64,000 bases of DNA from Streptomyces sp. NBC_01788 (GTDB taxonomy: Bacteria; Actinomycetota; Actinomycetes; Streptomycetales; Streptomycetaceae). A program made the translations under genes and the position numbers. The notes beneath the pieces were generated by a model. It was given only the letters and a program-made list of their open reading frames with translations, was not told the origin of the DNA and did not search any database. This document shows positions 6,986-34,215 of this stretch, piece by piece (within the stretch, counting starts at the first letter, position 1; every line of letters begins with the position of its first letter). The stretch is from assembly GCF_035917575.1 (NCBI RefSeq), contig NZ_CP109090.1:5828001-5892000 (forward strand). Reading direction: 5' to 3'.

Positions 6986-7915
6986 TCAGCCGCCCGCCAC
7001 CGAGGCGATGGACACGACCGCGGAGAAGACGTCCCTGTCCTGCTGCCGGCCGGTGACCAGCACCCTGCGGTTGCCGTTCAGGTCGTCCGGGAGCGAGGCG
7101 GACTCGATCCAGCAGGTGGTGTCGAACTCGGCGTAGCGGGCGAAGACGACGCTCATCCCCACCACCACGGCGGCGTCCGGGTGGACCATGGCCTGGGCCG
7201 CCTGACGCGCGGCTTCGAGCAGCAGCATGCCGGGCGCGTGGTCCACGGGGTGGTCGAAGAGGATCGGGTGAGCCCGGTCGACCCGCAGCTGCCAGCGCGT
7301 GCTGGAGTCGGTGGGCGAGAGGACCACGTCCTCGAAACTGCTCCGCCCCACGCGCTCGGGTGACGCGGGGGAGGGCAGGGGAACCGTATGCAGGCCGGGT
7401 ATGTCGGCGTAACGGCCCCGCAGACGTTCGTAGACGGTCCGGTCCTGGATCGTGAAGCGGGTGCGCGCGACGGCGAGGACCGTGCTGTCCCGCACCAACT
7501 CGAAGCGCAGCGCCAGGGCAGAGGCGCGCGCCTTGCGGCGTTTGACGTCCGTGCACGTGATGCGCAGGTCTATACCGACCGCGCCGCCGACACTGCGCAG
7601 GGCGTCCGCGTCGAGTTCCCAGGCGAAGTCTTGCCAGAGCAGCTGGTGTCCGAGCGGTACCTCGTAGGCACCGTGGGACAGCAGCGGTAACGTCTGGCGC
7701 ACCGTCTCGCAGAGCAGCATCGGGTCGTGCATGCCGAGCCGGGTCTCGTAGAAGACATGCTGCTCGGGCCAGCCGGCCTCCACCGCGTAGGAGTCCGCCC
7801 CCCTGCGGCACCAGTTGCTCAGCAGCACCTCGGACGCGTCGCGCTTGTGCGTGTACGACCGAGGAATGGCAGTAGGCATTTCTGTCACAGGCAGATGAGC
7901 AAGCTGAAGCGACAT
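6986..7915 (-). CDS. AfsA/ScbA-family gamma-butyrolactone biosynthesis protein
   Basis: Protein of 309 aa with two tandem AfsA-type hot-dog domains. The first is about residues 25-150 (LLSNWCRRGADSYAVEAGWP, VPLGHQLLWQDF); the second is about 190-305 (FDHPVDHAPGMLLLEAARQA, and FARYAEFDTTCWIES). The family joins a beta-keto acyl chain to dihydroxyacetone phosphate in making gamma-butyrolactone signals. The ATG at 7915 has the ribosome binding site GGGGAGGA. Codon 76 is TTA (7688-7690), so expression should need the bldA leucyl-tRNA. It is divergent from the TetR receptor at 8039, the usual synthase-receptor arrangement, with an ARE-like site between them. A full-length, undamaged gene. Confidence 0.93.
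   Translation of the reverse strand: MSLQLAHLPVTEMPTAIPRSYTHKRDASEVLLSNWCRRGADSYAVEAGWPEQHVFYETRLGMHDPMLLCETVRQTLPLLSHGAYEVPLGHQLLWQDFAWELDADALRSVGGAVGIDLRITCTDVKRRKARASALALRFELVRDSTVLAVARTRFTIQDRTVYERLRGRYADIPGLHTVPLPSPASPERVGRSSFEDVVLSPTDSSTRWQLRVDRAHPILFDHPVDHAPGMLLLEAARQAAQAMVHPDAAVVVGMSVVFARYAEFDTTCWIESASLPDDLNGNRRVLVTGRQQDRDVFSAVVSIASVAGG
7688..7690 (-). promoter_or_regulatory. TTA leucine codon (bldA-dependent)
   Basis: Codon 76 of the AfsA-type gene is TTA, in frame from the ATG at 7915 (225 nt). It encodes the Leu in RQTLPLL. TTA is very rare in Streptomyces and is read only by the developmentally controlled bldA tRNA. By eye I found no other in-frame TTA in the island's genes. Confidence 0.85.
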
Positions 7916-7990
7916 GGCAGTCCTCCCCTTGGGCTGCTGGCGAATGCCGAAGCGATAACGAGCGGACACGCATGCGTGCCGCCTCGGATA

Positions 7991-8017
7991 ACATAGAGGT
8001 CGTTCTTTTTGTTTGTC
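7991..8017. promoter_or_regulatory. ARE-like operator between synthase and receptor genes
   Basis: The divergent control region contains ACATAGAGGTCGTTCTTTTTG followed by TTTGTC. The right half CGTTCTTTTTGTTTGT is nearly the same as CGTTCTCTTTGTTTTT in front of the 9630-10823 gene. It resembles the AT-rich half-sites of autoregulatory elements bound by butyrolactone receptors. Its place between the synthase and receptor genes fits autoregulation. Binding itself is inferred. Confidence 0.6.
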
Positions 8018-8038
8018 GAGAGGTTGGGGCGGTCAGTG

Positions 8039-8665
8039 ATGGCACGACGCAGGCAGGAACGTGCCGTTCGTACCCGAGAAGTACTGCTCAGGGCGGCGGC
8101 CGAGATCTTCGACGCGGCCGGGTACTCCGGCGCGAGCGTCAACAAGATCCTGGAACGGGCCGGGCTGACGGCCGGGGCCATGTACTTCCACTTCAAGAAC
8201 AAGGAAGCCCTGGCCAGAGCCGTCATCATGGAGCAGGCCGCCGATCTGGAGTTCCCCCCGAGCGAGCCCGGCCTCCAGCAACTGCTCGACATAACCGGGT
8301 ACCTGGCGTGCGAACTGAAGAGCAACACGCTGCTGCGGGCCGGCGTCCGGCTGGCGGTGGAGCAGAACGAATCGGGTCTTCAGGAGTACTCGATCTACGA
8401 GTTCTGGATCGATCACTTCCGGGAGACCCTGGTCGAGGCGCGCACGAGGGGACAGTTGCGCCCCTACGTCGACGAAGCGGACTTCGCGCGAGTGATCGTC
8501 GGTGCCTTCACCGGTACGCAGATCATGTCCGAGATCTCCAGCGAGCGGGCCAACCTGCCCGAGCTGATCGCTGCCATGTGGCGCTGTCTGCTGCCCGCCC
8601 TGGCGCCGGACGAGGTCGTCGCGCAGCTCGTCATCCCCCACGACGGGTCGGCGGCGACCGCGTGA
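8039..8665 (+). CDS. TetR-family gamma-butyrolactone receptor (ArpA/ScbR type)
   Basis: DNA-binding repressor of 208 aa. The N-terminal helix-turn-helix reads TREVLLRAAAEIFDAAGY then INKILERAGLTAGAMYFHFK-like sequence (residues 13-60), with the AMYFHFKNKEAL block typical of butyrolactone receptors. The rest is the all-helical ligand pocket, including LRAGVRLAVEQ and a C-terminal FTGTQIMSEISSERANL segment. I start at the ATG at 8039, which follows GAGGTTGGGG; longer frames are possible. The gene is divergent from the AfsA-type synthase, so ligand maker and ligand receiver share a control region. The next gene overlaps its stop by GTGA, indicating co-translation. Confidence 0.92.
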   Translation: MARRRQERAVRTREVLLRAAAEIFDAAGYSGASVNKILERAGLTAGAMYFHFKNKEALARAVIMEQAADLEFPPSEPGLQQLLDITGYLACELKSNTLLRAGVRLAVEQNESGLQEYSIYEFWIDHFRETLVEARTRGQLRPYVDEADFARVIVGAFTGTQIMSEISSERANLPELIAAMWRCLLPALAPDEVVAQLVIPHDGSAATA

Positions 8666-9624
8666 GGCCGCCCCGCGTGGCGGTCACCGGAGCCACGGGC
8701 TTCGTCGGTTCGGTGGTGCTCCGCGGGCTCCTCGAAGCGCGTGCCGACGGCCGCGTCGACGACGTGCGCGCCCTGGTGCGCACACCTCCCGGGAGACGGC
8801 TCCGGGACGAGGCGGGCCCGTCGTGGTGCCCCGCGGACCTGACCGATCCGTCCTCGCTGTCCGGGGCGCTGGACGGCGTGCACGTCCTGGTGCACCTCGC
8901 GTCCCGGGTGTCCGGCGAGGCGCGCGCGTGCGAGGCCGTCAACGTCCGGGGGACCGCGACGCTCATCGAGGAGGCCCGCCGCAGCGGTGTCCGACGCGTC
9001 GTCCAGCTCTCGACGACCGCGGTGTACGGAGCCGGGCCGCACCGCGGGCTCACCGTGAACGAGATCGCGCCGGCGCCTGTCTCCGCGGCCAGCGCCACCC
9101 GGCTCGAAAGTGAGCGGCACGTGCTGGCGACGGGCGGCACGGTGCTGCGGGCCGGTCTGATCGTGGGCCAGGGCGACCGCTGGGTCGTCCCGGCGCTGGC
9201 CGAACTGCTCGCGCGGGTTCCGGCCCTCTGGGACGGCGGACGCGGCCTGCTGTCCCTCATCGACGTCGAGGACCTCGCACGGCTGATCACGACGACGGCG
9301 CTCATGCCGGACGCGCCGCCCACGGGCATCCATCACGCCGCCCACGCCCGTCCTGTACGCGTTCGCGACCTTTTGACCACACTCGCCTCCCTCGGCGTAC
9401 TGCCGAGTGTGACCGGGTCATGGCCCTGGGACGCCTGCGTACGCCGACTGCGCGAGGTGCCGGGTCCGATGAGCGAGCGCCAGTTCTCCCTCCTCGCCCT
9501 CGACCACTGGTACCGCGGCGAGGAGATCTGGCGCCTCACCGGATGCCCGGAGGGCCCCGGCCCGCTCGCCCGCCTCGCCTCCGCGTCCGCGTGGTACAGG
9601 TCGTTCCTCGCCGAAAGACCCTAG
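8662..9624 (+). CDS. SDR-fold NAD(P)-binding protein of the gamma-butyrolactone locus
   Basis: Extended short-chain dehydrogenase/epimerase fold, 320 aa. The nucleotide-binding motif GATGFVG lies at residues 9-15 and the Rossmann fold continues through VLVHLASRVSG and VVQLSTTAVYG. The usual YxxxK catalytic pair is not visible: the matching stretch PVSAASATRLESERH has Ala and Arg at those positions. I recall similar atypical sequences in other Streptomyces tailoring enzymes, so this may be a family trait and not damage. The GTG start overlaps the receptor's stop (GTGA), so the two are translationally coupled. A role in maturing the butyrolactone is plausible from position, since related loci carry reductases, but is not shown by the sequence. 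Confidence 0.75.
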   Translation: MRPPRVAVTGATGFVGSVVLRGLLEARADGRVDDVRALVRTPPGRRLRDEAGPSWCPADLTDPSSLSGALDGVHVLVHLASRVSGEARACEAVNVRGTATLIEEARRSGVRRVVQLSTTAVYGAGPHRGLTVNEIAPAPVSAASATRLESERHVLATGGTVLRAGLIVGQGDRWVVPALAELLARVPALWDGGRGLLSLIDVEDLARLITTTALMPDAPPTGIHHAAHARPVRVRDLLTTLASLGVLPSVTGSWPWDACVRRLREVPGPMSERQFSLLALDHWYRGEEIWRLTGCPEGPGPLARLASASAWYRSFLAERP

Positions 9625-9629
9625 GGTCC

Positions 9630-10823
9630 TCAGGCGGTGCGGGGCAGTGGGTCGGGGGCCTCGGGCGCGGCGGGGGTGGTGGAGGCCGGGGAGTAGAGAC
9701 GGCTGTAGGTGTAGGCGGCGGAGACCAGGGTCATGTGGTGGTGCCAGCCGGGGTAGGAGCGGCCCTCGAAGTCGAGGAGGCCGCAGTCCTCCTCAAGGCG
9801 GCTCACGGTGGCGGCGGCGCCGGAAGTCAGGTGGGCGAGCGCGGCGATGCGCCCGGCGCGTTCGTCGAGGAGGGTGGAGAGCCATGCGCGCGGGGCGCCC
9901 TGCCGGGCGGGGTCCCACTCGGCGAGGAGGCGGTGGGTCTGCCTGCTGCCGGGCAGCCGGACCCGGGTGGACAGCATCCTCACGTCACCGCTGCCCGGGG
10001 CGTGCACCGTGGCGTATGTCTGGCGGGTGCCGTGCCGGTGCAGGAACTCCTGAACGGACAGGGCGCCTTGGGCGTCCTGGGCGTCGGCAGGGGCGGGGCG
10101 AGGGCCGAGCGGGAGTATCCGCAGACCGGGCGGCACCGCCACGACGAAGTTCTGCCCGCGCCGGCTCAGGCCGTTGACCAGGAGGGTCGCGTCCGGGCAC
10201 TCGCTCATGTCCACCACCGCGGGGACCGCGGTGAGCCCCGCGCGGGACGAGACCATATCGAGCAGATCGAGGATGTGCTCCCAGTACGGGCGATGGCGGG
10301 CTGTACCGGGAATCCTGGCCCGCTCACGCAGGTCCGCGTCGTCGCTCCACCGCTCGGGAAGCATCAGACGCCAGTCCACCGGCAGGTGCATGTCCCCGGA
10401 GGAGAGGAACAGCCCGACTCCCATCTGGCAGTTGATGGTCCGGCCCAGCCGTGGCACGAAACGGCGGTGCACCCCGCACGAGTGCGCGCCGCGCTTGGGC
10501 AGGAACGCCGAGGCGACCGTCAGGGCCAGGGGCGTGGTGCGCCCCTGTACGACCCGGGTCAGTTCCTCACGGGCCGGTTCCCAGTCCCAGGGGCTGGTGT
10601 TGATGAACTGCTGCAGAGACTGCGACGCCGTCGGCGACGCCGAGATCGCGGCGGCAAGGCGGCGTATGGACTTCTTGCCCGGCGTCGCGAGCAGCCCGCG
10701 CAGGTAGCCCAGGGCCCATCGTCGTTGGTCGGCCCGTGGGAGATGTCCGAAGAGTGTGTCGCTGAAGGTGTTCAGCGAGGCCGTACCCCACTGCGGTGAC
10801 AGAACCAGGTGCTGCCCGGCCAT
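9630..10823 (-). CDS. IS701-type transposase relative lacking catalytic acids (candidate regulator)
   Basis: Protein of 397 aa that follows the IS701/DDE_5 transposase fold over its whole length: FINTSPWDWEPARE near residue 73, then FLPKRGAHSCGVHRR, INCQMGVGLFLSS, VDWRLMLPERW, and near the end LDFEGRSYPGWHHHMTL. In active family members the sequence before the PKRG block reads DDTGF; here it is ASAF, so both Asp residues are gone. The YRELK signature with the catalytic Glu is replaced by VSRLE. I see no terminal inverted repeats or target duplication, and its neighbours are intact. The frame is undamaged and a strong ARE-like palindrome lies 32 nt upstream. It looks like a domesticated protein under butyrolactone control; DNA binding is likely, and its exact function is unknown. 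Confidence 0.82.
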   Translation of the reverse strand: MAGQHLVLSPQWGTASLNTFSDTLFGHLPRADQRRWALGYLRGLLATPGKKSIRRLAAAISASPTASQSLQQFINTSPWDWEPAREELTRVVQGRTTPLALTVASAFLPKRGAHSCGVHRRFVPRLGRTINCQMGVGLFLSSGDMHLPVDWRLMLPERWSDDADLRERARIPGTARHRPYWEHILDLLDMVSSRAGLTAVPAVVDMSECPDATLLVNGLSRRGQNFVVAVPPGLRILPLGPRPAPADAQDAQGALSVQEFLHRHGTRQTYATVHAPGSGDVRMLSTRVRLPGSRQTHRLLAEWDPARQGAPRAWLSTLLDERAGRIAALAHLTSGAAATVSRLEEDCGLLDFEGRSYPGWHHHMTLVSAAYTYSRLYSPASTTPAAPEAPDPLPRTA

Positions 10824-10854: not shown

Positions 10855-10884
10855 AAAACAATAGCGAACGTTCTCTTTGTTTTT
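10855..10884. promoter_or_regulatory. ARE-like palindrome upstream of the transposase relative
   Basis: An imperfect 30-bp palindrome centred on AACGTT: the left arm is AAAACAATAGCGAAC and the right arm GTTCTCTTTGTTTTT. Eleven of 15 arm positions pair, and a one-base shift pairs the outer AAAACAA/TTTGTTTT blocks. It closely resembles the site at 7991-8017 and the ARE boxes of butyrolactone receptors. It lies just upstream of the minus-strand start at 10823. Confidence 0.7.
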
Positions 10885-11141
10885 GAGGGGGTGGGCGCTT
10901 TCGGTGAGACTTCGGCAAGTCACTGAAGTACCCGCAGGCATTTCCGTAAAAAACGGGCACAGATGCAGATGCGGCCACCAAACCCCGTACATCTATCGGA
11001 AGTCGGCGTTGTGACGGAGCTCTCGCCACCAGAAGCTCTGGACAGCAACGCGGCCCATCGCATTGAGAGGAGACCAGCAATGACGCGATCGCGGACGTGC
11101 GCGGAACGCGACGACCGCCTGGCCCGCGGAGGCTGTCCACG

Positions 11142-11813
11142 GTGAAACAGGGAAGAGCGGTCCGGACCCGCGAGTCCCTCATCCGGGCCGCCGCCGACGC
11201 CTTCGACGCCGCGGGCTTCGAGGCCACGTCACTGGGACGGATCTGCGCGGGGGCGGGCACCTCCATGGGCGCGCTGACCTTCCACTTCCGCTCGAAGGCC
11301 GCACTCGCCGACGCGGTGCAGCAGCACGGCATCGCGCTCACCGGCGAAGTGGTGCAACGGATCTTCAGAACACGTCAGCCCCCGCTGGAGACCATCATCG
11401 CCATCACCCTCGCCGTCGTCGGTCTGCTTGAGGAGAGTTCCGTGGTCCGGGCCGCCGCCGGGCTCAGCCGCGAGCGCGTGGCGACCACCTCCCCGTGGCC
11501 CTCCTCGTGGATTCCGGTGATCGAGGATCTGGTGACCCGTGTGCCCGAGGAGACCCTGAGCCCCGGCACCCACCCGCGTGCGCTCCTCTCCCTGGTCACG
11601 CATCTCGTGACCGGCGCCGAGGTGCTCATCCACACCGGCGGCGAGGCCGCGGAGCCGGACCATGTCCGCGCGGTGACCCAGGTCGCCGAGATCTGGGAGC
11701 TCACGCTGCGCGGGGTCTCCCCGACCGTGCGTCTTCCCCAGCAGCGGCGGACCGGGGCCCGCACGCGGAGTGCTCCAGGACGGGCACGGACGGCAGAGGA
11801 CGGTGCTGTTTAG
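11142..11813 (+). CDS. TetR-family regulator, butyrolactone receptor-like (second copy)
   Basis: Protein of 223 aa in the same family as the receptor at 8039. The helix-turn-helix begins AVRTRESLIRAAADAFDAAG and continues through SLGRICAGAGTSMGALTFHF with RSKAALADAV, the family hallmark. The C-terminal region differs more and ends in a basic tail. The GTG at 11142 has GGAGG nine bases upstream. Streptomyces signalling loci often pair a true receptor with a divergent pseudo-receptor that answers to other ligands or to antibiotics, and this gene is a good candidate for the second role, though sequence alone cannot decide. It sits upstream of korA with 107 nt between. Confidence 0.88.
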   Translation: MKQGRAVRTRESLIRAAADAFDAAGFEATSLGRICAGAGTSMGALTFHFRSKAALADAVQQHGIALTGEVVQRIFRTRQPPLETIIAITLAVVGLLEESSVVRAAAGLSRERVATTSPWPSSWIPVIEDLVTRVPEETLSPGTHPRALLSLVTHLVTGAEVLIHTGGEAAEPDHVRAVTQVAEIWELTLRGVSPTVRLPQQRRTGARTRSAPGRARTAEDGAV

Positions 11814-16953: not shown

Positions 16954-19284
16954 CTACGGGGTGATGAGGCCGGCGATCGCGCCGACGGTCGGATCCTGGA
17001 AGAGCTGCCTGATCCGCAGGCGCACACCCGAGCGCTCGTGGATGTCGTTGATCAGCCGGCTGGCCAGAAGGGAGTTGCCGCCGGAGGTGAAGAAGTGCTG
17101 CTCGACGCCGACGTCCCGGATGCCGAGAAGCTCGGTGAACAGCTCGGCCACCAGGATCTCCCCCGCCGTGGCCGGTTCACGTCCCGCGCGGGCCACCTGG
17201 GACTCGGGCCGGGGCAGGGCCCCCCGGTCCAGCTTCTCGTTGGCGGTGAGCGGCAGCCGCTCCAGGACGACGAACGCGCTCGGCACCATGTAGTCGGGCA
17301 GCGCCGACTCGGCCTGCGCGCGCAGCCTGTCCAGGTCGGGGGCCGCGTCGTTCGCGGAGACCACGTACGCCACCAGCCTCTGGTCGCCCGGAGTGTCCTC
17401 GCGGACGAGGCAGACCGCCTGGCTGAGCTGCCCGTCGCGCAGCAGGACGGACTCGATCTCCCCCAGCTCGACCCGGAACCCTCGGATCTTGACCTGGTGG
17501 TCGAGCCGGCCGAAGAACTCGATGACGCCGTCGGCCCGCCAGCACGCCGCGTCCCCGGACCGGTACATGCGGGCGCCGGGCCCGCCGTACGGGTCGTCGA
17601 CGAAGCGCTCAGCGGTCAGGTCGGGCCGGCCCAGGTATCCCTCGGCCAGCTGGACACCGGCGAGGTACAGCTCGCCGGTCACCCCGGGCGGCAGCTGGCG
17701 GCGCTGCTCGTCGAGCACGTAGAGGCGGGTGTTCCATACCGGCCGGCCGATCAGCACCGGGCCGGGCTCGGGCTTCTTCGGGCACAGCATCGAGGTCACG
17801 TCCACGGCCGCCTCGGTGGGGCCGTAGACGTTGAACAGGTCGGCGTCCAGGACCGAGGAGAACCACGCCTGCAGTTCGGCGGGCAGGGCCTCGCCGCCGC
17901 ACACCACACGGCGCAGGCTCGTACAGGCGGCGGCGCCCGGCTCCCGCAGGAACACCTTCAGGCCGGAGGGCACGAAGTGCGTGATGGTGATGTTCTCGGT
18001 GGCGATCGTCTCGGCCAGGTACGCGGGGTCGCGGTGCCCGTCTGGGTCGGCGACCACGATCGACGCCCCGGCGAGCAGCGGCCAGAACACCTCGCGCACG
18101 GTCACGTCGAACCCGGCAGGCGTCTTCTGCAGCAGCCGGTCGTTCGGGCCCAGCGGAATCTGGTGCTGCATGTGGTGCAGCCGGTTGGTGATGGCACGGT
18201 GGGCGACCACCACGCCCTTGGGGCGTCCCGTCGAACCCGAGGTGTAGAGCACGTAGGCCGGGGAGTCGGGGGTGAGCGGTGCGCGCCGGTCGGCGTCCGT
18301 GGGCGGGGCCGGGGTGGCCGCCGCGAGCCGGGCCACGGCGTCCGGGTCGTCCAGGACCAACTGCCGCGCGGGCACCAGGACCGAGTCCGTCAGCTCCCGC
18401 ACGGTCACCACATGGGTGACCCCGGCGTCGGCGAGGACCTGGTTGATGCGTTCCACCGGGTAGCTCGTGTCCACCGGCAGATAGGCGGCGCCCGTCTTGA
18501 CGATGGCGAGGGCCGTGACGACGTAGTCGACCGACCGCGGCAGCACCATGGCGACGATGTCCCCGTGGCCGGCGCCGTCGGCGATCAGCAGCCGGGCGAT
18601 CCGGCTGGCGCGCCCGTCCAGCTCGGCGTAGCTGAGCCGCTGGTCACGGTGGCTGAGGGCGGTCCGCTCCGGGTGCGCCGCGGTGTTCGCCTCGACCAGC
18701 TCGGGAAGCGTCAGGGTCGGCACCGGGTGCGCGGTGTCGTTCCACACGTGCATGATCTGGTGGTGCTCGGCAGGCGTGAGCAGCTCGACGCCGCCCACCT
18801 CGGCTGTCGGTCCGGCCTCCAGGAGGCGCCGGGTGAAGTGGCTGAGACGGTCGGTGTGCGCCGCCAACTCCTCGTCGCTGTGGCGCTCCGGGTTGCCCCG
18901 CGCCCGGGCGTCAAGGCGGCCGTCCGCGTCGAGGGTGAGGACGAGGGCGAGGTCGTCTACCGTCACCGGGCCCGCGTCGAGGAGCACCTGTGTGCTGCCG
19001 GGCGCGGCGACGGCCTCGGCCGCGACCGGCGAGGTGCGGGCCGCGCGGACCCGCTCCACCAGCTCGGCCAGGGTCGTCGTGGGCTCGACGCGGAGCCTGA
19101 GCGGCCCGGGCAGGCCGGCCACCCTGAGCTCCACGTCCCCCTCCGAGGTCAGCCGGTAGCGGTAGGCCGCAGCACAGGCGAGGACGTGGTCGGCCCAGTC
19201 GGCGGCCGGCGACGCGGTGACGTCGTCGAGGAGGATCCCTCCCGCGGACGCGGTCCGCGGTGCTTGTGTGTCGTGCACGGTCAT
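16954..19284 (-). CDS. NRPS protein: vestigial C-like region, adenylation, PCP
   Basis: Protein of 776 aa. The first ~160 residues resemble the back half of a condensation domain but have no HHxxxDG motif, so condensation is not expected. The A domain (about 170-690) has YVLYTSGSTGRPKG, NVYGPTEAAVDVT, YRSGD and NEKLDRG-type core motifs. It is close to EntF-like serine-activating domains. Reading the specificity positions by hand against EntF gives D-V-R-H-V-G-V-V-D-K, serine-like but with Arg where serine codes have Trp. The PCP (about 705-775) has GGNSL with the phosphopantetheine Ser at 738. The start overlaps the upstream gene by ATGA. It lies with a P450, an SDR and a hydrolase, as in cassettes that modify a carrier-bound amino acid. 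Confidence 0.9.
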   Translation of the reverse strand: MTVHDTQAPRTASAGGILLDDVTASPAADWADHVLACAAAYRYRLTSEGDVELRVAGLPGPLRLRVEPTTTLAELVERVRAARTSPVAAEAVAAPGSTQVLLDAGPVTVDDLALVLTLDADGRLDARARGNPERHSDEELAAHTDRLSHFTRRLLEAGPTAEVGGVELLTPAEHHQIMHVWNDTAHPVPTLTLPELVEANTAAHPERTALSHRDQRLSYAELDGRASRIARLLIADGAGHGDIVAMVLPRSVDYVVTALAIVKTGAAYLPVDTSYPVERINQVLADAGVTHVVTVRELTDSVLVPARQLVLDDPDAVARLAAATPAPPTDADRRAPLTPDSPAYVLYTSGSTGRPKGVVVAHRAITNRLHHMQHQIPLGPNDRLLQKTPAGFDVTVREVFWPLLAGASIVVADPDGHRDPAYLAETIATENITITHFVPSGLKVFLREPGAAACTSLRRVVCGGEALPAELQAWFSSVLDADLFNVYGPTEAAVDVTSMLCPKKPEPGPVLIGRPVWNTRLYVLDEQRRQLPPGVTGELYLAGVQLAEGYLGRPDLTAERFVDDPYGGPGARMYRSGDAACWRADGVIEFFGRLDHQVKIRGFRVELGEIESVLLRDGQLSQAVCLVREDTPGDQRLVAYVVSANDAAPDLDRLRAQAESALPDYMVPSAFVVLERLPLTANEKLDRGALPRPESQVARAGREPATAGEILVAELFTELLGIRDVGVEQHFFTSGGNSLLASRLINDIHERSGVRLRIRQLFQDPTVGAIAGLITP

Positions 19285-20075
19285 GCGCCACGCTCCAACA
19301 GGAATCGGTGTACGGCCTCGGCCACGTCCGGGGTGTCGAGCAGAGTCGCGGTGTCCACGGGGAAACGCCGTACGGCGCGTGCGTGCACGGCACCCGGACC
19401 GCCGTGCGCCGAGGTCAGGGCGAGCGCCGCGGCCCAGCCCTCCTCCGGGTGCAGTTGCCGGGCCGCGTGCAGGTAGGAGACGTAGGACCGGAACAGGCCG
19501 AGCAGGTCCTCGCTGGTCTCCTCGTCGAACCCGAGCAGGTCGAACGCGGTGCCGGCGACGGTCTCGTAGACCTTGACGACCTGGGCCGCGGTGGCGGTGA
19601 AGTCCTCCTCGCCGGCCGCCTCGCAGACCGCCAGGACCTCGGCGACCGCGTCGGACCGCTCCTGTTCCGGCACCACCGTGAGGGTGTCGACGGTCTTGCG
19701 GAAGTCGCGGTACAGGCTCAGCCGGGCCACCGGCTCGGGGTCGAGCAGCAGCAGCGCCGGCCGCTCCCCCTGCTCCGAGGCGATCTCGTCGGCGAGCGCG
19801 GCGGCGAACACACCGCCAACGCAGTAGCCCATGACGGTGTCGATGTGCCGGGGGCCCTCCGGGAGCCGGCGCCACAGGCGCAGATAGTCCTGCGCCGACA
19901 GCAGCTCGTTCTCGGCCTCGGCGGGCTGGGCGGTCTGCCAGATCTCCCGTGGCGTCAGACGCGCGGCGAGGCGGCGGAAGTCGGCCTCCGGCCTGCCGGT
20001 GGAGTCGAAGTCGACCGCCAGGACCGTACGGGCCGGGTCGCCCTCGCCGATCCTGCGCCAGCTGTTCGCGCTCAT
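19281..20075 (-). CDS. Alpha/beta-hydrolase, thioesterase-like, with Cys in the nucleophile elbow
   Basis: Protein of 264 aa with a thioesterase-like layout. The nucleophile elbow reads MGYCVGGVFAAALADEI (about residues 92-108), so the usual GxSxG serine is cysteine. It is followed by LLLLDPEPVARLSLY at the next strand and a C-terminal VHRFLLERGA. There is no signal peptide. Start (ATGA with the SDR upstream) and stop (ATGA with the A-PCP gene downstream) both overlap neighbours, so its product should be made in step with them. It may release or transfer an amino acid from the A-PCP protein. A cysteine nucleophile favours acyl transfer over hydrolysis in some characterised thioesterases; that role here is inference. 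Confidence 0.75.
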   Translation of the reverse strand: MSANSWRRIGEGDPARTVLAVDFDSTGRPEADFRRLAARLTPREIWQTAQPAEAENELLSAQDYLRLWRRLPEGPRHIDTVMGYCVGGVFAAALADEIASEQGERPALLLLDPEPVARLSLYRDFRKTVDTLTVVPEQERSDAVAEVLAVCEAAGEEDFTATAAQVVKVYETVAGTAFDLLGFDEETSEDLLGLFRSYVSYLHAARQLHPEEGWAAALALTSAHGGPGAVHARAVRRFPVDTATLLDTPDVAEAVHRFLLERGA

Positions 20076-21085
20076 CGTGGTTCTCCCCCCGGCTTCCGCA
20101 GCAGCTCGGCCTCCTCGGCCGGGGTGAGCCCCGCCTCGCGCTCGCGGTCGAGACCGAGGCGACGCTCGTGGGCGAGGACATCGCGGACGACGTCCTCGAT
20201 CGGGCGGTGGGTGAGACCGGCGGCGACGGCCCGGGTGTGGTCGTGGGCCATGAATCCGCGGTCCTCCCGGGGCACCCACAGCGGCAGCGACTTCGGTCCC
20301 CGCCACACCTGCACCCCGGCCCGGTCCAGGTGCTCCTCGGAGACCGGGACGAGGTCGGTGTCCGGTGCGCCGACCGTCTTGACGATCAGGTCGAGCAGCT
20401 CGCCGAAGGGCAGGCTCGGGCCGACCCCGTTGTAGGTGCCTGCGATGCCCTGTTCGCCCGCGCCGACGATCCACGCCGCGAGGTCACGTACGTCGAGCAC
20501 CTGCGTGGGCTGCTCGGGGACGTCCGGTACGGCGACGCGGCCGCCGCGGGAGATCCGCGCGGGCCAGTAGCCGAAGCGGTCGGAGACGTCGCCGGGGCCC
20601 ACGATGAGCCCGGAGCGCACGATCAGCGCCCGCTCGTCCAGGGCCGCGCGCACCGCGTTCTCGCAGGCGACCTTGATGGCGCCGTAGAGATGCGGATGCT
20701 CGATCCGTTCGAGTGCCAACGCGCCCGACTCGGCGGGCTCGTGGAGGGCCGCGTCCTCGTTCTGCCCGGCGGTGACGGCGTCGGCGTACACGTTGATGGA
20801 TGATACGAACGTCCAGTGCCGGGCGCGCGTGCCGAGCACCCGCAGCGCCTCCCGGACCCACGGGTACGACATGGTGGCCACGTCCACCACCGCGTCGAAG
20901 TCGATGCCCGCCAGCGGGGCGAGGCCGTCGGGGGCGTCCCGGTCGACCTTGACGAGCGTGGCACCCTCCGGGACGTTCCCGGAGGTGCCGCGCGCCGCGC
21001 AAACGACCTCGTGCCCTCGGCGTACGGCATCGGCGGCGACGGCGTGCGACAGGAAGGCCGTACCGCCCAATACGAGGATCCGCAT
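20072..21085 (-). CDS. NAD(P)-dependent SDR (epimerase/reductase family)
   Basis: Extended SDR, 337 aa. The nucleotide-binding start is MRILVLGGTAFLSHAVAADA, with GGTAFLS in place of the canonical GxxGxxG. The catalytic residues are present: Ser in TFVSSINVYAD and the YGAIK pair (Tyr and Lys). A substrate-binding region follows (VRSGLIVGPGDVSDRFGYW). It is likely to oxidise or reduce a hydroxyl or keto group on the pathway intermediate, such as the position oxidised by the adjacent P450; the substrate is not evident. The start is two bases after the P450 stop, and the end overlaps the hydrolase gene by ATGA. Confidence 0.85.
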   Translation of the reverse strand: MRILVLGGTAFLSHAVAADAVRRGHEVVCAARGTSGNVPEGATLVKVDRDAPDGLAPLAGIDFDAVVDVATMSYPWVREALRVLGTRARHWTFVSSINVYADAVTAGQNEDAALHEPAESGALALERIEHPHLYGAIKVACENAVRAALDERALIVRSGLIVGPGDVSDRFGYWPARISRGGRVAVPDVPEQPTQVLDVRDLAAWIVGAGEQGIAGTYNGVGPSLPFGELLDLIVKTVGAPDTDLVPVSEEHLDRAGVQVWRGPKSLPLWVPREDRGFMAHDHTRAVAAGLTHRPIEDVVRDVLAHERRLGLDREREAGLTPAEEAELLRKPGGEPR

Positions 21086-21087
21086 GG

Positions 21088-22428
21088 TCAGGAACCCCCG
21101 TGGGCGACGGGGCAGCCGGTCATGGCCGACTCCTCGGAGGTGTCGGCGGCGCGGGGCCGCAGACGCTCGTACGACACCGGCAGCTTCGCCAGACCGCGGC
21201 TGACCGAGTTGTCGTACACCCACTCGGTGTCCGCCGGGTCGATGGCCAGGGTCAGGCCCTCAAGCCGGCGCAGCAGCGTGGGGAAGACGACATGGCCCTC
21301 CAGCCGGGACAGCGGGGCCCCCGGGCAGAAGTGCGGGCCGTGGCCGAAGGTGAGATGGCGGTTGTTGGTGCGGGTGATGTCCAGACGGTCGGGGTCGTCG
21401 AAGATGTTCGGGTCGCGGTTGGCGGCGGCGATCAGCAGGTGGACGAACGCCTCCTTGCCGATGAGGACGTCGCCGATCTCCATGTCCTGCGCGGCGACGC
21501 GCAGGGTGCCGCGGTAGCTCGGCGACTCGTAGCGCAGGAACTCCTCGACTGCCGAGACCACCAGATCGGGCTGGGAGCGCAGCAGGTCGAACTGGTCGCG
21601 GTGGGTGAGCAGGGCGTGAACGCCGTTGCCGATGAGGTTCGTGGTGGTGCGCTGGCCCGCGATGATCACCAGGGACATCGTCGAGGCGATCTCGTCGATG
21701 GTGAACGTGCCCTCCTCGTCGGCCGCGCGGAGGAGCTGGCTCACCAGGTCGTCGCCCAGGTCGGAGCGGCGCGCCTCGAGGAGATCGAGGATGTACTGCT
21801 CGAAGGCGGAACTCACCTGCTTGAGGCGGTTGTTGGCCTCCTCGTCCGCGTACGGGGCACCGCCGAGGATCTTGGACCAGTCGTAGAGCATCTCGCGGTC
21901 CGAGACATCCACGCGCAGGTACTCGAAGATGACCATGACGGGCAGGACGCGGGCGAACTCCATCAGGTCGATCTCGCCCGACTCCGGGAACGCGTCGATG
22001 AGGTCGTCGGCGATCTCCTGGATGCGCGGGCGCAGCTTCTCCATGCGGCGCGGAACGAAGGACTTGCTGACCAGCTTGCGCAGCCGCGAGTGTTCCGGGG
22101 CGTCCGCGATGAGCATGTTGCGGGCCTGGACGGGGCTGTTGTCGAAGAGCTGGTCGCGGAACCACTTCGGCGCGTTGTCCAGGGACTTGGAGATACGGCC
22201 GTCGCCGAACGCCTTCAGCGCCATGTCGTAGTCCGACACGATGTACGCCTCGGCACCGGGCGGATGGTTGATGGCACGCACGGGGCAGGACGACCGCAGC
22301 TGCGCGTAGGTCGCGTTCCGGTCGTCGATCGAGTGGGTGAAGAACTCCGGGGGCAGCGCCTGCGCCTGCCCCCCCGGCAGCTCCGCGCCGGCCTCGACAG
22401 GGCCGGCCTCGGTGATCTCCTGTGTCAT
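21088..22428 (-). CDS. Cytochrome P450 with atypical I-helix (AGQRTT)
   Basis: P450 monooxygenase of 446 aa. The heme-binding loop is FGHGPHFCPGAPLSRLEG with the ligand Cys, the ExxR motif is EEFLR, and the N-terminal region is typical of bacterial class I enzymes. The oxygen-activation segment of the I-helix is IIAGQRTTTN: the threonine pair is kept, but the acidic residue normally before it is arginine. This can change proton delivery and hence the chemistry. It probably needs a ferredoxin, and one is encoded at 36152. Being next to the A-PCP, SDR and hydrolase genes suggests oxidation of a carrier-bound amino acid. It ends with the short tail TGCPVAHGGS. Confidence 0.92.
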   Translation of the reverse strand: MTQEITEAGPVEAGAELPGGQAQALPPEFFTHSIDDRNATYAQLRSSCPVRAINHPPGAEAYIVSDYDMALKAFGDGRISKSLDNAPKWFRDQLFDNSPVQARNMLIADAPEHSRLRKLVSKSFVPRRMEKLRPRIQEIADDLIDAFPESGEIDLMEFARVLPVMVIFEYLRVDVSDREMLYDWSKILGGAPYADEEANNRLKQVSSAFEQYILDLLEARRSDLGDDLVSQLLRAADEEGTFTIDEIASTMSLVIIAGQRTTTNLIGNGVHALLTHRDQFDLLRSQPDLVVSAVEEFLRYESPSYRGTLRVAAQDMEIGDVLIGKEAFVHLLIAAANRDPNIFDDPDRLDITRTNNRHLTFGHGPHFCPGAPLSRLEGHVVFPTLLRRLEGLTLAIDPADTEWVYDNSVSRGLAKLPVSYERLRPRAADTSEESAMTGCPVAHGGS

Positions 22429-22453
22429 GGCAACTCCTTGGTGTTGGCTCGAA

Positions 22454-23725
22454 TCACGTCAGGTCCCCGGCGGAGGCCAGGGTTCGGATGCCCTTGGTCA
22501 GGGTGGGCAGGGCGCCCAGGGTGGCGACAGCGCCGATCGTGGCGAAAACCCAGGCCGGGCCCGCGGCCTCGAAGACGACACCGATGCCGAGGACGCCGAG
22601 GGGCGAGACGATCGTGGAGCTGAAGATGATCGCTCCGAGGACCCGGCCCTGGAGCCTGTCGGGCACGACCTTGGCCGTGTAGGTGAGAAACAGCGCGTTG
22701 ATGATCGGTCCGCGGATGTAGACGCAGGCGACGACGATGCCGAGCGGTATGACCCCGGGCACGGTCGCAAGCAGCACGGCGGCGACCGGACCGATCCAGT
22801 AACCCGCGATGAACACCGCCGACGGACGGGCCCGCCTGATGATGAACTCAGCTACCAGCGCCCCGGCCAGCCCGCCCATGCCGGCGATCGCGAGGGTCAG
22901 CCCGATGAACGACTCGGACGCTCCGCGTTCGGTCCCCGTGGCGATGACGGCCAGGGAGATCCCGGTCGTGTTGAACGCCAGGTTGGACAGCGTAACGCTG
23001 ACGATCAGCGGGCCGAGCACCGGATGCTTCGCCAAGTAGCGGAATCCGCCGAGGAGTTCCTTTTTGGCACCGGGCACCGCCTGCGGCTGCGGTGTTCTGG
23101 GGACGAAGAGCATCAGCACGGACGAGACCGCGAAGGAGATGCTCGCGCCGATGAACGGCAGCACCCGCGTCACCCCGTGCAGGGCACCGCCGATGGACGG
23201 TCCTGCGGTGATGGCTCCGAACCAGCGGATCTGGTTCTGCGCGGTCGCCTGCGCGAGCTGGTCGGGCCGCACCAGCTGCTTGATCATCGCCATGCCGGCG
23301 GGCATCGACAGACCGAAGCACGCCGCCGACACGATGGCGATGCCGAGCGTCACGGCCACGTTCACCGCGTCCGCGAGGACCAGCAGGGTGAACACACCGA
23401 GCAGGGCCGCCCGCAGCATGCTGCAGCCGATCAGCAGCTGCTTGCGGTCCATCCGGTCGGCGAGAATGCCGCCCCAGAAGGACATCAGACCCTGCGCGAG
23501 CAACTGGGCCGAGCCGACGAGCCCGGCGGAGACCGCCGAACCCGTCGTGGTCAGGATGAGCATCGGATAGGCGACACCCGCGGCGTTCTCGCCGACACCG
23601 GCGAATGCCTCGCTGCTCCACAGTGCCTGGAAGGGCCGGTTGCGCAGCAGCGTCGGCCCGGCGGACGGCTCGGGCGCCGACTCGGGCAGGTCGGCCGTGG
23701 TGGCCGCCGGCTGGTCACTCGCCAT
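22454..23725 (-). CDS. MFS transporter, probable product exporter
   Basis: Integral membrane protein of 423 aa with about 12 hydrophobic segments spread from residue 30 to 410 (for example GVAYPMLILTTTGSAVSAGL and AVTLGIAIVSAACFGLSMPA). The loop after TM2 reads GGILADRMDRKQLLIG, the cytoplasmic MFS signature. It resembles the drug-efflux and EntS-like MFS group. The ATG at 23725 overlaps the 3' end of the PKS gene by 11 nt, so it is translated with the pathway. Likely role: export of the product and self-protection. No other obvious resistance gene is present in the island. Confidence 0.9.
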   Translation of the reverse strand: MASDQPAATTADLPESAPEPSAGPTLLRNRPFQALWSSEAFAGVGENAAGVAYPMLILTTTGSAVSAGLVGSAQLLAQGLMSFWGGILADRMDRKQLLIGCSMLRAALLGVFTLLVLADAVNVAVTLGIAIVSAACFGLSMPAGMAMIKQLVRPDQLAQATAQNQIRWFGAITAGPSIGGALHGVTRVLPFIGASISFAVSSVLMLFVPRTPQPQAVPGAKKELLGGFRYLAKHPVLGPLIVSVTLSNLAFNTTGISLAVIATGTERGASESFIGLTLAIAGMGGLAGALVAEFIIRRARPSAVFIAGYWIGPVAAVLLATVPGVIPLGIVVACVYIRGPIINALFLTYTAKVVPDRLQGRVLGAIIFSSTIVSPLGVLGIGVVFEAAGPAWVFATIGAVATLGALPTLTKGIRTLASAGDLT

Positions 23726-26700
23726 CGTGCCGCTCCTCGATCGAATTGTCGGCCAGCAGGCCGCTGAGCTTCGCGGCGAGATCACCCACGTGGGGCTCTC
23801 GCAGCAGCGACCAGTGCTCACCGGCCACCGGCACCACGGTGACGTCGGGCCCGTACAGTCCCTCAAGGCCGAGCCGCAACTGCCGGGCCTCCCCGGCGCC
23901 GACGCCCACCTTGAACACCGCGGTCGGGCAGCTGACCGGGCGGGGCCGGTAGCGCGTCAAGGTACGGAACTTGTCCAGCAGCAGCCCGCGCAGCGCCGGG
24001 TTGCGCCGGGCCTGAGCCCCCGCCTCACCCACTCCGAGTGCGGCGCAGGCCATGAGCCGCAGGTGCCCCAGCACGAACGTGGGGTCGGCGCCGATGCGGC
24101 GGCCCGCCTGGCCGGGCATGTACGCGTCCAGGCAGACGAGCAGGTCGACCCGTGCCCCGCGCCGCGCCAGTTGGCTCGCCATCTCATGGCCCACGACGGC
24201 GCCGAAGGACCAGCCACCGATGGTGTACGGGCCCTCGGCCTGGAGCCCGGTCAGCGTCTGTACGTGGAACGCGGCGATCTCCTCGATCCGCGCTCCGTCG
24301 ACGTCCCTGGGCTCCAGCCCCAGCACCGGGCGCGTCGTGTCCAGGCCGTCGGCCAGGGCGAGGTAGCTCAGCGTGGAGTCGGCCGCGTCCGCCACCAGGA
24401 ACACGGGCCTGCCCGAGCCCTCGCGCAGCCGTGTGAAGCGCGGCTCGGGCGGGGCGGCCGCCTCGGTGACGGCGGCCTCGGGCACGGTCTCCCCGAAAGG
24501 CCCGTCGCCCAGCTGCTCCTCCGCGACCCGGCGCAGGTGGCCGAAGGTCGGCTCACGCATGAACTCGGCGACGGGGACGACGACGTGAGCCTTCTCCCGT
24601 AGCTGAGTCATCAGGTTCAGCACCACCAGCGATTCACCGCCGAGGTCGAAGAAGTTGTCCGGGTCGGAGGCCGACGTCACGCCCAGCGACTGGCACCACA
24701 GCTCCTCGACCCGGCGCCGGGCTGCGGACCCCCGGTTGGCGCTGTCGGCACGCGCGGTGTCCGGGCGCGGTGCCTCGGTCCCGGGGTCCCGCTCGGCGAA
24801 GGGGTGGCCCGGCAGCGAGCACCGGCGGGCGGTGTCCGGCGCGCCGTCGAGGGCCGCCCCGGCCGCGGCCAGGGTGGGGCCGGCGACGTCCAGGCCGCGC
24901 TCCCACAGCGCCCCGAGGCCGCGCAGCAGCCCGCGCTCCTCGTCCTGCTCCCTGCCCAGCAGCGGCACCGCGGCGAGGGCCGGGTCCCACTGGGGGGCGA
25001 GGCGCAGCGCGCCCAGCATCGTGCTGCCCGGGCCGAGTTCGACGAACGTGTCGCAGTCGGAGCCGAGCAACGTCGCCATACCGGCGTCCAGCTGGACGGG
25101 CCTGCGCACATGCGCACCCCAGTAGTCGGGGCCCGACACGGCGTCGGGGTCGGCCCACTCGCCGGTGACGTTGGAGACCATGCGCAGCTCGGGCAGCCGG
25201 GTGGGCATGGCCGAGATCAGCTGCGCGAGACGGTCGGCCACGGGGGCCTGCAGTTCGCAGTGAGCGGCCCGGTCGACGTTGAGCGGCTTCAGGTCCAGGC
25301 CGGCCAACGCGTCGCCGTCGATCAGCTCCGTCATGGCCTGCGCGGGTCCGGAGAGCACCACGCCGCCCCGGCTGAACATGGAGACGGTCACCTCGTCGCC
25401 CAGCCGCACCCTGCGGGTCACTTCCTCCACGGGGGCGTTGACCGCGAGCATCCGGCCGGGTGCCGTGGCCCGCAGTCCTTCGGCGCGTTCGTGGACCAGG
25501 ACGGCCGCGTCGGTCGGCGACCACACTCCGGCGAGCGCGGCGGCGGCGTACTCGCCGACGCTGTTGCCGAAGAGCGCCGCCGGCTTCACCCCCCACTCCT
25601 GCAGCTGCCGGGCGAGTGCGTAGCCGAGCGTGTAGAGCCCCAGTTGCTGGTGCGCCCAGTCCTCGAACCACTCCGGCGCCACGGGGGTGCCGGAGACCAC
25701 CGGGGACAGGTCGATCCCGAAGCGGGCCCTGGCGAAGCCGGCGATCTCGTCGAAGTGCTCACGGAACGCCGGCAGCAGCCGGTACGGGGCCGCACCCGTC
25801 GGATGCCGCAGCACTCCGTGCCCGGGGAAGAGGAACGCCACCTGTGACAGCGACCGCCGCTGCGGTGCGCGCACACCGCGCAGTAGCCGGGCTGCCTCGG
25901 CGTGGTCGCGCGCGACGACACAGGCCCGGTGCGGATGCTGCCTGCGGTCCGCCAGCGTCCGTGCCACCGCGTCGAGCGCCGGCGCGGGTTCGGCTTCGAG
26001 CCGCTCGGCGAGCTGATGGCCGTACCGTCCGAGGGCTTCGGGCGTGGCGGCGGAGAGCAGCAGTGTCCGGGCCGACGAGCCCTCGGCGGGTGCCGGGATC
26101 AGGGGCGCGGCGGCGAGGACGACATGGGCGTTGGTGCCGCCCACGCCGAAGGCGCTGACCGCGGCGACGGGGGTCCGGCCCGCGGGCCACGGGCGGCCGT
26201 CGACGCACACCTCGAAGGGCGACGTGTCCAGGTCGAGCAGCGGGTTCGGCTTGGTGTAGTGCAGTGTCGGCACCAGTTCCCGGTGTTCGATCATCAGCAC
26301 CGTCTTGATGAACCCGGCCACCCCGGCCGCCGCGCTGGTGTGGCCGATGTTGCTCTTGACGGAGCCCAGCCAGGTCGGGTGGTCCTGCTGTGCGGTGCCG
26401 AACACATCGGTCAGGGCTGCCACTTCGACCGGGTCGCCCATGGGGGTGGCCGTGCCGTGGCACTCAATGTGGTCGATGTCGCCCGGCTCGACCTCGGCGA
26501 CCCGCTGGGCGTGCCGGATCACCTCGCTCTGGCCGGGAATGGAGGGCGCGGTGAAACCCAGCTTGTCCGAGCCGTCGTTGTTGAGGGCCGAGCCCCGGAT
26601 CACCGCGGCGATCCGGTCGCCGTCCCGCAGCGCGTCCTCCAGACGCTTGAGGACGACCACCCCCACGCCCTCGCTGGGCACCGTGCCGGCGGCCTTCTCG

Positions 26701-27389
26701 TCGAAGGGGCGGCAGTGGCCGTCGGGCGAGAGGATGCTGCCCTGCTCGTGCAGATAGCCCCACTCGCCGGGCGGCGACACGGTGACACCGCCGGCCAGCG
26801 CCGCGTCGCACTCGCCGGTCAGCAGCGCCTGGCGCGCCATGTGGATCGCCGTGAGCGACGTGGAGCACGCCGTCTGCACGGTGATCGCGGGTCCGCGCAG
26901 TCCGAGTTTGTACGCCACGCGGGTCGCCACGAAGTCCTTCTCATGGCTCACCATGCGGACCAGGGGGCTGAGTTCGCCGGAGCTGTCGAGCAGGGTCCGG
27001 TCGGACCCGGCGTACACCCCGACGCGTCCCTCGAACCGGCCGACGTCGAGTGCAGCGTCGTCGAGGGCGGTCGCGGCGCATTCGAGGAACACCCGCTGCT
27101 GCGGGTCGATGTGCGCCGCCTCGGCCCGGTTGTAGCGGAAGTACGTCCAGTCGAAGTTGCGTGAGCCGTCGAGCACGCCCTTGGCCGGTACGAACTCCGG
27201 GCGCCGCACGAGTGAGGGGTCCGCGCCCTTGGCGAGCAGGGCGTCGATGTCGAACCGCGTGATGCCTTCACGCCCGTCGCGCAGCAGTTGCCAGAACTCG
27301 CGTATGTCGGCGGCGCCCGGGTAGCGGCACGCCATTCCGACGACGGCTATCGCTTCGGTGGGCCTGGCCACCGCCATCGTCCCGCTCAC
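23715..27389 (-). CDS. Modular polyketide synthase: KS-AT-ACP-TE
   Basis: Single-module type I PKS, 1224 aa from a GTG that overlaps the upstream stop (GTGA); the ATG at 27377 is the alternative. KS (about 12-435) has its three active residues in TACSTSL, HGTAT and NIGHT. AT (about 530-830) has FPGHG and FGNSVGEY, that is, Asn where GHSxGE is usual. At the specificity position it reads RAAH, not HAFH (malonyl) or YASH (methylmalonyl), so the extender is unclear. ACP (about 895-960) has GGESL. The C-terminal thioesterase has GGWSFG and a late GEHW histidine. There are no KR, DH or ER domains, so the beta-keto group made here is not reduced on the line. As the only module with a thioesterase it is probably the last. 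Confidence 0.93.
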   Translation of the reverse strand: MSGTMAVARPTEAIAVVGMACRYPGAADIREFWQLLRDGREGITRFDIDALLAKGADPSLVRRPEFVPAKGVLDGSRNFDWTYFRYNRAEAAHIDPQQRVFLECAATALDDAALDVGRFEGRVGVYAGSDRTLLDSSGELSPLVRMVSHEKDFVATRVAYKLGLRGPAITVQTACSTSLTAIHMARQALLTGECDAALAGGVTVSPPGEWGYLHEQGSILSPDGHCRPFDEKAAGTVPSEGVGVVVLKRLEDALRDGDRIAAVIRGSALNNDGSDKLGFTAPSIPGQSEVIRHAQRVAEVEPGDIDHIECHGTATPMGDPVEVAALTDVFGTAQQDHPTWLGSVKSNIGHTSAAAGVAGFIKTVLMIEHRELVPTLHYTKPNPLLDLDTSPFEVCVDGRPWPAGRTPVAAVSAFGVGGTNAHVVLAAAPLIPAPAEGSSARTLLLSAATPEALGRYGHQLAERLEAEPAPALDAVARTLADRRQHPHRACVVARDHAEAARLLRGVRAPQRRSLSQVAFLFPGHGVLRHPTGAAPYRLLPAFREHFDEIAGFARARFGIDLSPVVSGTPVAPEWFEDWAHQQLGLYTLGYALARQLQEWGVKPAALFGNSVGEYAAAALAGVWSPTDAAVLVHERAEGLRATAPGRMLAVNAPVEEVTRRVRLGDEVTVSMFSRGGVVLSGPAQAMTELIDGDALAGLDLKPLNVDRAAHCELQAPVADRLAQLISAMPTRLPELRMVSNVTGEWADPDAVSGPDYWGAHVRRPVQLDAGMATLLGSDCDTFVELGPGSTMLGALRLAPQWDPALAAVPLLGREQDEERGLLRGLGALWERGLDVAGPTLAAAGAALDGAPDTARRCSLPGHPFAERDPGTEAPRPDTARADSANRGSAARRRVEELWCQSLGVTSASDPDNFFDLGGESLVVLNLMTQLREKAHVVVPVAEFMREPTFGHLRRVAEEQLGDGPFGETVPEAAVTEAAAPPEPRFTRLREGSGRPVFLVADAADSTLSYLALADGLDTTRPVLGLEPRDVDGARIEEIAAFHVQTLTGLQAEGPYTIGGWSFGAVVGHEMASQLARRGARVDLLVCLDAYMPGQAGRRIGADPTFVLGHLRLMACAALGVGEAGAQARRNPALRGLLLDKFRTLTRYRPRPVSCPTAVFKVGVGAGEARQLRLGLEGLYGPDVTVVPVAGEHWSLLREPHVGDLAAKLSGLLADNSIEERHDGE

Positions 27390-30829: not shown

Positions 30830-30894
30830 TGATCAGTCTCTTCCCACGGGTACGAGGAGTGGTCGCGGTTGGCGCGAGATGCGGAAGCCCTGGG

Positions 30895-32556: not shown

Positions 32557-32566
32557 CGGATCCCCC

Positions 32567-33820: not shown

Positions 33821-34204
33821 TTCACGGAAGCATCGCGGTACGGAGGGCGGACGGCACAGGCCGACCCGGGCGTCGGACGGAGAAAGCGCGCCGCCCGCGA
33901 ATTCGAAAAGGAGCGGGGGCGAGTCGCGAGAATCGAGCGGTTTGCCGCCCGCGACCGACATAGCTGGACCGTATCCCCTGGCCGCCCGCACCGGGCAAGC
34001 GGCGGCGAGCCATGCCTCGACTACTTACGCAACTTGCCATTCTGGTTCCGGGGCACCGGCCATGTGCTGAACCCGGTCGCGTACCCACGTAAGCTCCCGA
34101 TCCAGCTCGCACACCCCACTTCCCCGGATGCCGCCGCACAACCCGCGGGCTGCACGTTCGTATCCAGAGAAACCCCGAACCATTTCGGCAAGTCGACCTT
34201 GCAA
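33821..34204. promoter_or_regulatory. Divergent control region of the two biosynthetic operons
   Basis: About 380 nt separate the minus-strand operon (first gene P450) and the plus-strand operon (first gene aldo/keto reductase). It must hold both promoters. I see no convincing -35/-10 pair and no copy of the ARE-like motif found at 7991 and 10855. It is locally less GC-rich around 33895-33965 and 34025-34090. No gene fits here: open frames across it are unlike Streptomyces coding sequence. Confidence 0.6.
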
Positions 34205-34215
34205 GGAGCATGCCC

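Follow-up and report, generated by a model that had tools for sequence, protein, structure and literature searches.

Analysis of the 64-kb window (the whole stretch of DNA that was analysed, in a genome of 8.27 Mb on a single contig) indicated that the gene here called TNP is probably (roughly 0.6) the descendant of an IS701 transposase that would now act as a receptor-controlled, autoregulated DNA-binding regulator. The place of TNP in a butyrolactone circuit was well supported by the sequence comparisons, and we infer that the protein binds DNA and activates both itself and the cluster. In many Streptomyces, TNP has become a permanent component of the hormone circuit that turns on antibiotic gene clusters, most likely in the form of a DNA-binding switch. 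The observation made in the initial annotation was confirmed in the sequences compared here, and its interpretation of TNP as a transposase fold kept for regulation was supported. The features of the window are shown in Table 1.

Table 1. Coordinates of TNP and associated features in the window
Feature	Position	Strand	Evidence or remark
afsA homologue (ScbA/BarX family)	6986..7969	(-)	325 bits, cut-off 200
ARE-like site between afsA and the receptor gene	7989..8014	.	33.3 bits; site type outside the motif training set
ScbR-family receptor gene	8009..8665	(+)	208 bits, cut-off 150
NAD-epimerase/reductase-like gene, same module	8677..9624	(+)	named by sight
TNP, IS701-derived pseudo-transposase, catalytic residues lost	9630..10823	(-)	ORF, profiles, alignment, fold match
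ARE-like palindrome over the TNP promoter	10857..10882	.	40.4 bits by the family motif
-10-like hexamer TATTGT within ARE	10858..10863	(-)	aligned TNP promoters
Motif 2 (second palindrome, core ACTTCGGCAAGT), candidate TNP operator	10905..10924	.	17.2 bits
Second ScbR-like TetR gene, divergent from TNP	11097..11813	(+)	129.7 bits, family cut-off 150
NRPS/PKS operon	16954-33664	(-)	right of the TNP module
Weak motif 2 copy, control region, tentative	34019..34038	.	12.1 bits
Weaker motif 2 copy, tentative	34178..34197	.	15.6 bits; 23 bp before aldo/keto reductase ORF 34210(+)

The TNP frame was intact, as the initial annotation had stated, and coded for 397 amino acids. Its further statement that the whole IS701 fold is kept was borne out by the NCBIfam IS701 transposase profile NF033540 (312 bits, cut-off 150, residues 18-376 of 397), by Pfam DDE_5 (199.5 bits) and by a predicted fold whose match to the Tn5 transposase spanned residues 13-389 and so took in the N-terminal domain. 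Tn5 Inh (1b7e) was also among the fold matches. The predicted Tn5-like fold comprised an N-terminal DNA-binding part and an RNase H core. Searches of Pfam and NCBIfam (E 0.001) gave DDE_5 and IS701 only, with no SARP/BTAD, HTH or other regulator domain. The best conserved part of TNP was residues 14-95 (0.743), and many invariant N-terminal and core residues were common to the TNP family and active IS701.

The genome of the window contained two nearly identical active-type IS701 copies. At the catalytic blocks, L002, an active IS701 from this genome, carried IDDVSFPK, VADAGYG and YREMK, while TNP carried VASAFLPK, VVDMSE and VSRLE. The alignment of the two places A104-S105 at the DD pair and V340-S341-R342-L343-E344 at YREMK, with D205 kept, in agreement with the replacements of DD by AS and of YRELK by VSRLE that had been noticed before. 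Among 109 family rows, only one (L122) had the second D of DD, 21 had the E of YREK and none had its Y; among 40 active-type rows the corresponding numbers were 39, 37 and 37. A 200-row alignment was made up of the query, 120 listed matches, 75 loci and 4 extra copies, and left out L087 as well as both active elements of the genome. In it, no row had the second D of DD, 184 rows had the triad's second aspartate, and 5 rows combined the first D, D and E; the second aspartate was counted in this alignment, its column being shifted by one in the alignment of 109 and 40 rows. The counts in both alignments thus place the catalytic loss across the family, though some rows keep some residues.

The family dN/dS, a check proposed with the initial annotation, had a median of 0.293 (133 pairs that share branches and so are not independent; range 0.12-0.59, Nei-Gojobori), which is far from one and similar to the values of the neighbouring ScbR receptors (0.278, 174 pairs) and AfsA proteins (0.271, 57 pairs). 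The value for active IS elements was equally low (0.253, 146 pairs), so that a low dN/dS alone does not separate TNP from them. Catalytic loss combined with full-length selection does tell TNP apart from active elements, and the loss of catalysis with selection acting on the rest of the protein fits a transposase-derived regulator. For TNP of the window against that of L012 (98% identical), dN/dS was 0.515, resting on very few changes. A frame matching almost the full length of the query was present in 75 of the 76 other loci, the exception being the remote L087. In the tree, the 109 TNP rows lay on one side of a branch with an SH-aLRT of 99 and the 40 active-type rows on the other, with long branches meeting at this separating branch and an outgroup made up only of the IS701 types found around these searches. 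The first-branching group (3 rows) had neither afsA/ScbR neighbours nor ARE, and therefore the circuit may have been acquired later. Two or three divergent TNP genes, adjoining or sharing a locus, were present in L061, L069, L076 and L114, a pattern that would fit duplication of the regulator.

Among 77 loci (the window and 76 others), gene calling and BLAST clusters showed ScbR-type genes in 53 and afsA in 43, with no TNP gene called in L062 and L087. A recurrent gene order was afsA, receptor, reductase and a second receptor divergent from TNP; the BLAST cluster of the reductase-like gene of the window was present in 21 of the 77 loci. The second ScbR-like gene of the window, for which the gene caller placed the start at 11142 and not at 11097, falls below the family cut-off and appears pseudo-receptor-like. 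Because the 77 loci had been drawn by likeness to the query, the count was repeated on an even sample of 150 evenly drawn Streptomyces genomes (matches at E 1e-60). Of 45 fetched 20-kb regions, L106, L117 and L128 were dropped as no TNP gene was called, leaving 42; the regions common to both samples were L094/L075, L107/L052 and L119/L085, judged partly by identical values. ScbR was found in 27 of these 42 loci, afsA in 24 and either gene in 29, while 40 active-IS701 loci processed in the same way had ScbR in 1 and afsA in 0 (p 5e-11). Homologues that have lost the catalytic residues do cluster near AfsA/receptor genes, and the suggested placement in a signalling circuit recurred beyond one locus (29/42 against 1/40 active loci). 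Neither afsA nor ScbR was nearby in 13 of the 42 members.

An enediyne-type cassette lay downstream of TNP in many loci, among them L021, L025, L028-L031, L034, L043 and L077. Its genes, named by sight, were HxlR-like, two DUF1702-like, ASPIC/UnbV-like, RnfD-like and an enediyne-type PKS. This cassette would tie the butyrolactone module to enediyne-type clusters. Small conserved membrane-like genes were also found beside TNP in L016, L019, L023, L075, L084 and L086 (clusters mb15 and mb16) and in L035, L044 and L079 (cluster c24).

A palindromic EM search upstream of TNP genes that adjoin ScbR-type genes gave the motif AAaAAaAGaGAaCGtTCtCTtTTtTT, and the palindrome of TNP and afsA promoters is presumably the element known as ARE. 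In cross-validation on two halves, which contained related loci, 21 of the 23 regions held out in one test and 22 of the 23 in the other scored above the 95th percentile of the controls (221 intergenic regions). The EM search thus set TNP regions apart from controls, which a generic search for palindromes in these GC-rich promoters, scored against shuffled sequence, failed to do. The motif was found above 14 bits before 37 of 43 afsA genes, a set outside its training, and because these upstream regions carry the same motif it was tied to the receptor. At 14 bits or more, the 77 loci contained 102 sites, with 56 before TNP, 40 by afsA or its receptor gene and 6 elsewhere. The strong ARE-like palindrome that the initial annotation had seen in the TNP promoter was recovered. 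Apart from it and the site between afsA and the receptor gene, nothing in the window scored more than 6 bits, so that one operator type is common to the TNP and afsA/receptor promoters. In the even sample, where some regions had been in the motif training set, ARE was present before 28 of 42 TNP genes and 0 of 40 active controls (p 9e-12) and absent in 14 TNP members. About a third of the TNP family lies outside the circuit (13 and 14 of 42 even-sample members by neighbours and by ARE, respectively). The phylogenetic pair test of ScbR versus ARE was not significant (median p 0.375). Of 71 aligned TNP promoters, 68 had a TANNNT -10-like box in the right half of ARE on the TNP strand, and 15 had one on the opposite strand; 21 of 27 afsA promoters also had such a box in ARE. 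With the box inside ARE, a bound receptor would cover the -10 box.

When ARE was masked, a further motif, cgACTTgGCcAAGTcg, emerged upstream in the ARE-bearing promoters. This palindrome (motif 2), ACTTSSSSAAGT, lay about 45 bp upstream of ARE and was also found before some cluster genes; in the window the two centres were 45 bp apart. In cross-validation, 30 of 42 and 25 of 42 held-out regions exceeded the control 95th percentile. Motif 2 was upstream of ARE in all promoters with both sites (67/67), with centres 43-49 bp apart in 41 of the 67. Given the placement of the -10 box, motif 2 would lie near -64 from the expected start, and class I activators bind near -64. Helical phasing of the motif 2-ARE spacing was strong on raw counts and failed after collapse to nine classes (1763/20000). 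The distance from motif 2 to the -10 box was 36-38 in cluster promoters (eight) versus about 52 in TNP promoters, with no common distance.

Motif 2 sites were counted at 16 bits or more, with identical contexts counted once. In the 122 TNP loci, 47 sites preceded TNP and 27 preceded other genes; 45 and 23 of these, respectively, were in the 85 loci with ScbR, and 2 and 4 were in the 37 loci without ScbR. No such site was found in 35 afsA loci without TNP, where 9.5 before genes were expected at the TNP-locus rate; 40 afsA loci had been fetched, and five that held a TNP gene were moved to the TNP groups. At a threshold of 11 bits, these 35 loci had 7 sites before genes, all of 14 bits or less. 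In the 40 active-IS loci there was no motif 2 of 16 bits or more between genes, the 2 sites found being both inside genes.

Among 12 ARE-bearing TNP promoters for which no ScbR was seen in the locus, motif 2 was found in 8, at 44-47 bp from ARE in L033, L037, L042, L055, L100, L101 and L105 and at 35 bp in L057; it was absent in L047, L054, L056 and L082. In L050, no ScbR was seen and ARE scored 2.5 bits, yet motif 2 scored 23.9 bits. These cases imply that a neighbouring ScbR gene is unnecessary for motif 2. Motif 2, which was discovered on ARE-bearing promoters, was rare in TNP promoters without ARE (7 of 36 in one count and 6 of 37 in another) and hence follows ARE-type TNP genes and not the whole family. 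TNP would be its simplest reader, though others are possible.

Elsewhere, motif 2 was found before an HxlR-like gene heading the enediyne-type cassette (four loci), before ScbR-type genes and before a SARP-like gene (names by sight). A 22-bit motif 2 lay before an NRPS-like gene in each of L033, L037, L047 (Kribbella) and L082 (Streptomyces record). These four loci had TNP and an ARE-like site, with no ScbR or afsA seen in the locus. At L095:6212, a response-regulator-like gene instead of TNP was preceded by a motif 2 of 24.2 bits and then by an ARE-like sequence, which makes it a second gene carrying this double operator. The motif 2 half-site was compared with the core GRCTTSG of the active terminal repeat, and 70 and 123 of 5000 column shuffles were equally good; the likeness is weak and suggestive only.

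In the window, the two tentative copies near 34 kb were within the region divergent from the NRPS/PKS operon and inside the control region that the initial annotation had named. Both copies are weak, and the link of motif 2 to the cluster of the window is therefore tentative. In the genome of the window, ACTTSSSSAAGT was not enriched, occurring in 12 places against 23 for a reversed control pattern. The aldo/keto reductase gene at 34210 was widespread (134 of 392 genomes), and only three other TNP relatives passed the threshold for close ones (392 genomes, E 1e-120; 56-57% identity), too few for footprinting of the 34-kb control region.

The following circuit is proposed. Without signal, the ScbR-type receptor would sit on ARE and block RNA polymerase; the butyrolactone made by AfsA would release the receptor, and TNP would be made. 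TNP would then bind ACTTSSSSAAGT about 45 bp upstream of ARE through its retained Tn5-like N-terminal domain, probably as a dimer, and from this position near -64 would activate its own gene. By binding copies of the palindrome before cluster genes it would switch these on, and so may occupy the place that a SARP activator holds in other clusters. A wider proposal, put forward tentatively and at slightly less than even odds, is that TNP may represent a new class of DDE-transposase-derived activators in Streptomyces and some relatives, including Kribbella, which would be released by the receptor, bind a palindrome with terminal-repeat-like half-sites, activate themselves from about -64 and drive enediyne-type, NRPS and other antibiotic clusters.

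Public records annotate TNP relatives as transposase or IS701 family transposase (20 plasmid rows listed), as would suit an ordinary IS701 insertion, decayed or still mobile, whose place in the cluster is accidental. Such a reading could also draw on the dN/dS of active elements, which is as low, and on the presence of relatives in 43 plasmid records, all from Streptomyces (e.g. NZ_CP016083.1 and NZ_CP107925.1), of which 41 were predicted to be non-mobilizable. However, the flanks of TNP in the window (250 bp each) gave a best local inverted match of 9 against a shuffle maximum of 10, in keeping with the earlier remark that no terminal repeats are visible, while the flanks of an active IS gave 18 against 12. 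None of the 6 TNP loci tested (the window and L012 being nearly alike) had terminal inverted repeats beyond the shuffle maximum, and 35 active IS701 elements had a terminal repeat around ctAGTAGkrCTtcGTTAGGT. In the even sample, the TNP family had 47 matches in 42 of 150 genomes (37 genomes with one, 5 with two), of which 46 were near full length, one covered residues 11-240 only, and 6 had one stop listed in the matched stretch. The active type had at least 103 matches in 43 genomes, up to 12 per genome and many partial or stopped, these counts being lower bounds because at most 12 candidates were scored per genome. Scattered multicopy elements with terminal repeats and decayed copies are a picture that fits the active IS701s and not the TNP family, in which the frame is near whole, the catalytic residues are lost family-wide and the neighbours recur. 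A chance insertion is thus highly improbable and, for the family, refuted as far as sequence allows. It is also improbable that TNP is an inhibitor of transposition or recombination that silences active IS701 copies or protects the cluster, in the way that Inh inhibits Tn5. The fold match to Inh agrees with such a role, and inactive transposase variants can poison active ones, but this reading leaves unexplained why TNP lies beside afsA/receptor genes, why its promoter has ARE and why motif 2 precedes cluster genes. TNP and the active type occurred together in 12 of 150 genomes, which is the number expected by chance.

TNP could instead be a receptor-controlled member of the circuit that does not itself recognise motif 2. 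The best candidates for the reader would then be the pseudo-receptor encoded by the divergent second ScbR-like gene and some regulator from another part of the genome, and TNP would act in a different way, for example by binding a partner. This reading is considered unlikely. Motif 2 does sit between TNP and the second receptor gene, lies before an ScbR-type gene in L044, L060, L079, L081, L085 and L119, and is rare before TNP genes without ARE (7/36), all as another reader would allow. Against this, the 35 afsA loci without TNP had no 16-bit motif 2 although 24 of them carry at least two ScbR-type genes, and the motif persists before TNP where no ScbR was seen in the locus, in the 8 of 12 ARE promoters (three of which, L042, L101 and L105, have afsA in the locus, so that a receptor may lie just outside) and in L050. 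Reading of motif 2 by TNP itself is the preferred interpretation.

Compared with known systems, TNP belongs to the same Pfam and NCBIfam families as the IS701 DDE transposase of the L002 type. Active IS701 elements keep DD, D, YREK and terminal repeats, whereas TNP has lost these features, is mostly single copy and is often beside afsA/ScbR genes. It differs from the Tn5/Inh pair in that it retains the N-terminal domain, is found with antibiotic clusters and lacks an adjacent active partner. In the FarR, TylS and CcaR circuits, cluster activators of the SARP type stand under gamma-butyrolactone receptors; like them, TNP is encoded within a cluster and has a receptor operator in the promoter of its gene, but unlike them it has only DDE_5 and no SARP, HTH or other regulator domain. 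TldR proteins derive from TnpB, which is an RNA-guided nuclease and no DDE transposase, while TNP would recognise DNA by protein. TldR proteins are reported to be RNA-guided repressors (PMC13418256), and to that extent resemble TNP as bacterial transposon proteins that have lost nuclease activity and regulate transcription, which for TNP we infer. A full-text literature search, taken at the level of titles and abstract openings and with subscription journals mostly outside it, returned no description of the TNP family or its circuit, and an earlier one is possible.

TNP genes are easily ignored because they are annotated as transposases. As a transposase-derived DNA-binding switch, TNP would be a new type of bacterial regulator, and ARE together with motif 2 makes this idea directly testable. 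If TNP proteins are output regulators of butyrolactone circuits, they would offer handles to wake silent clusters, many of them with enediyne-type PKS cassettes, and would be a clear example from bacteria of a DDE transposase that has become a DNA-binding regulator and whose operator, control site and still-mobile relatives are all in view.
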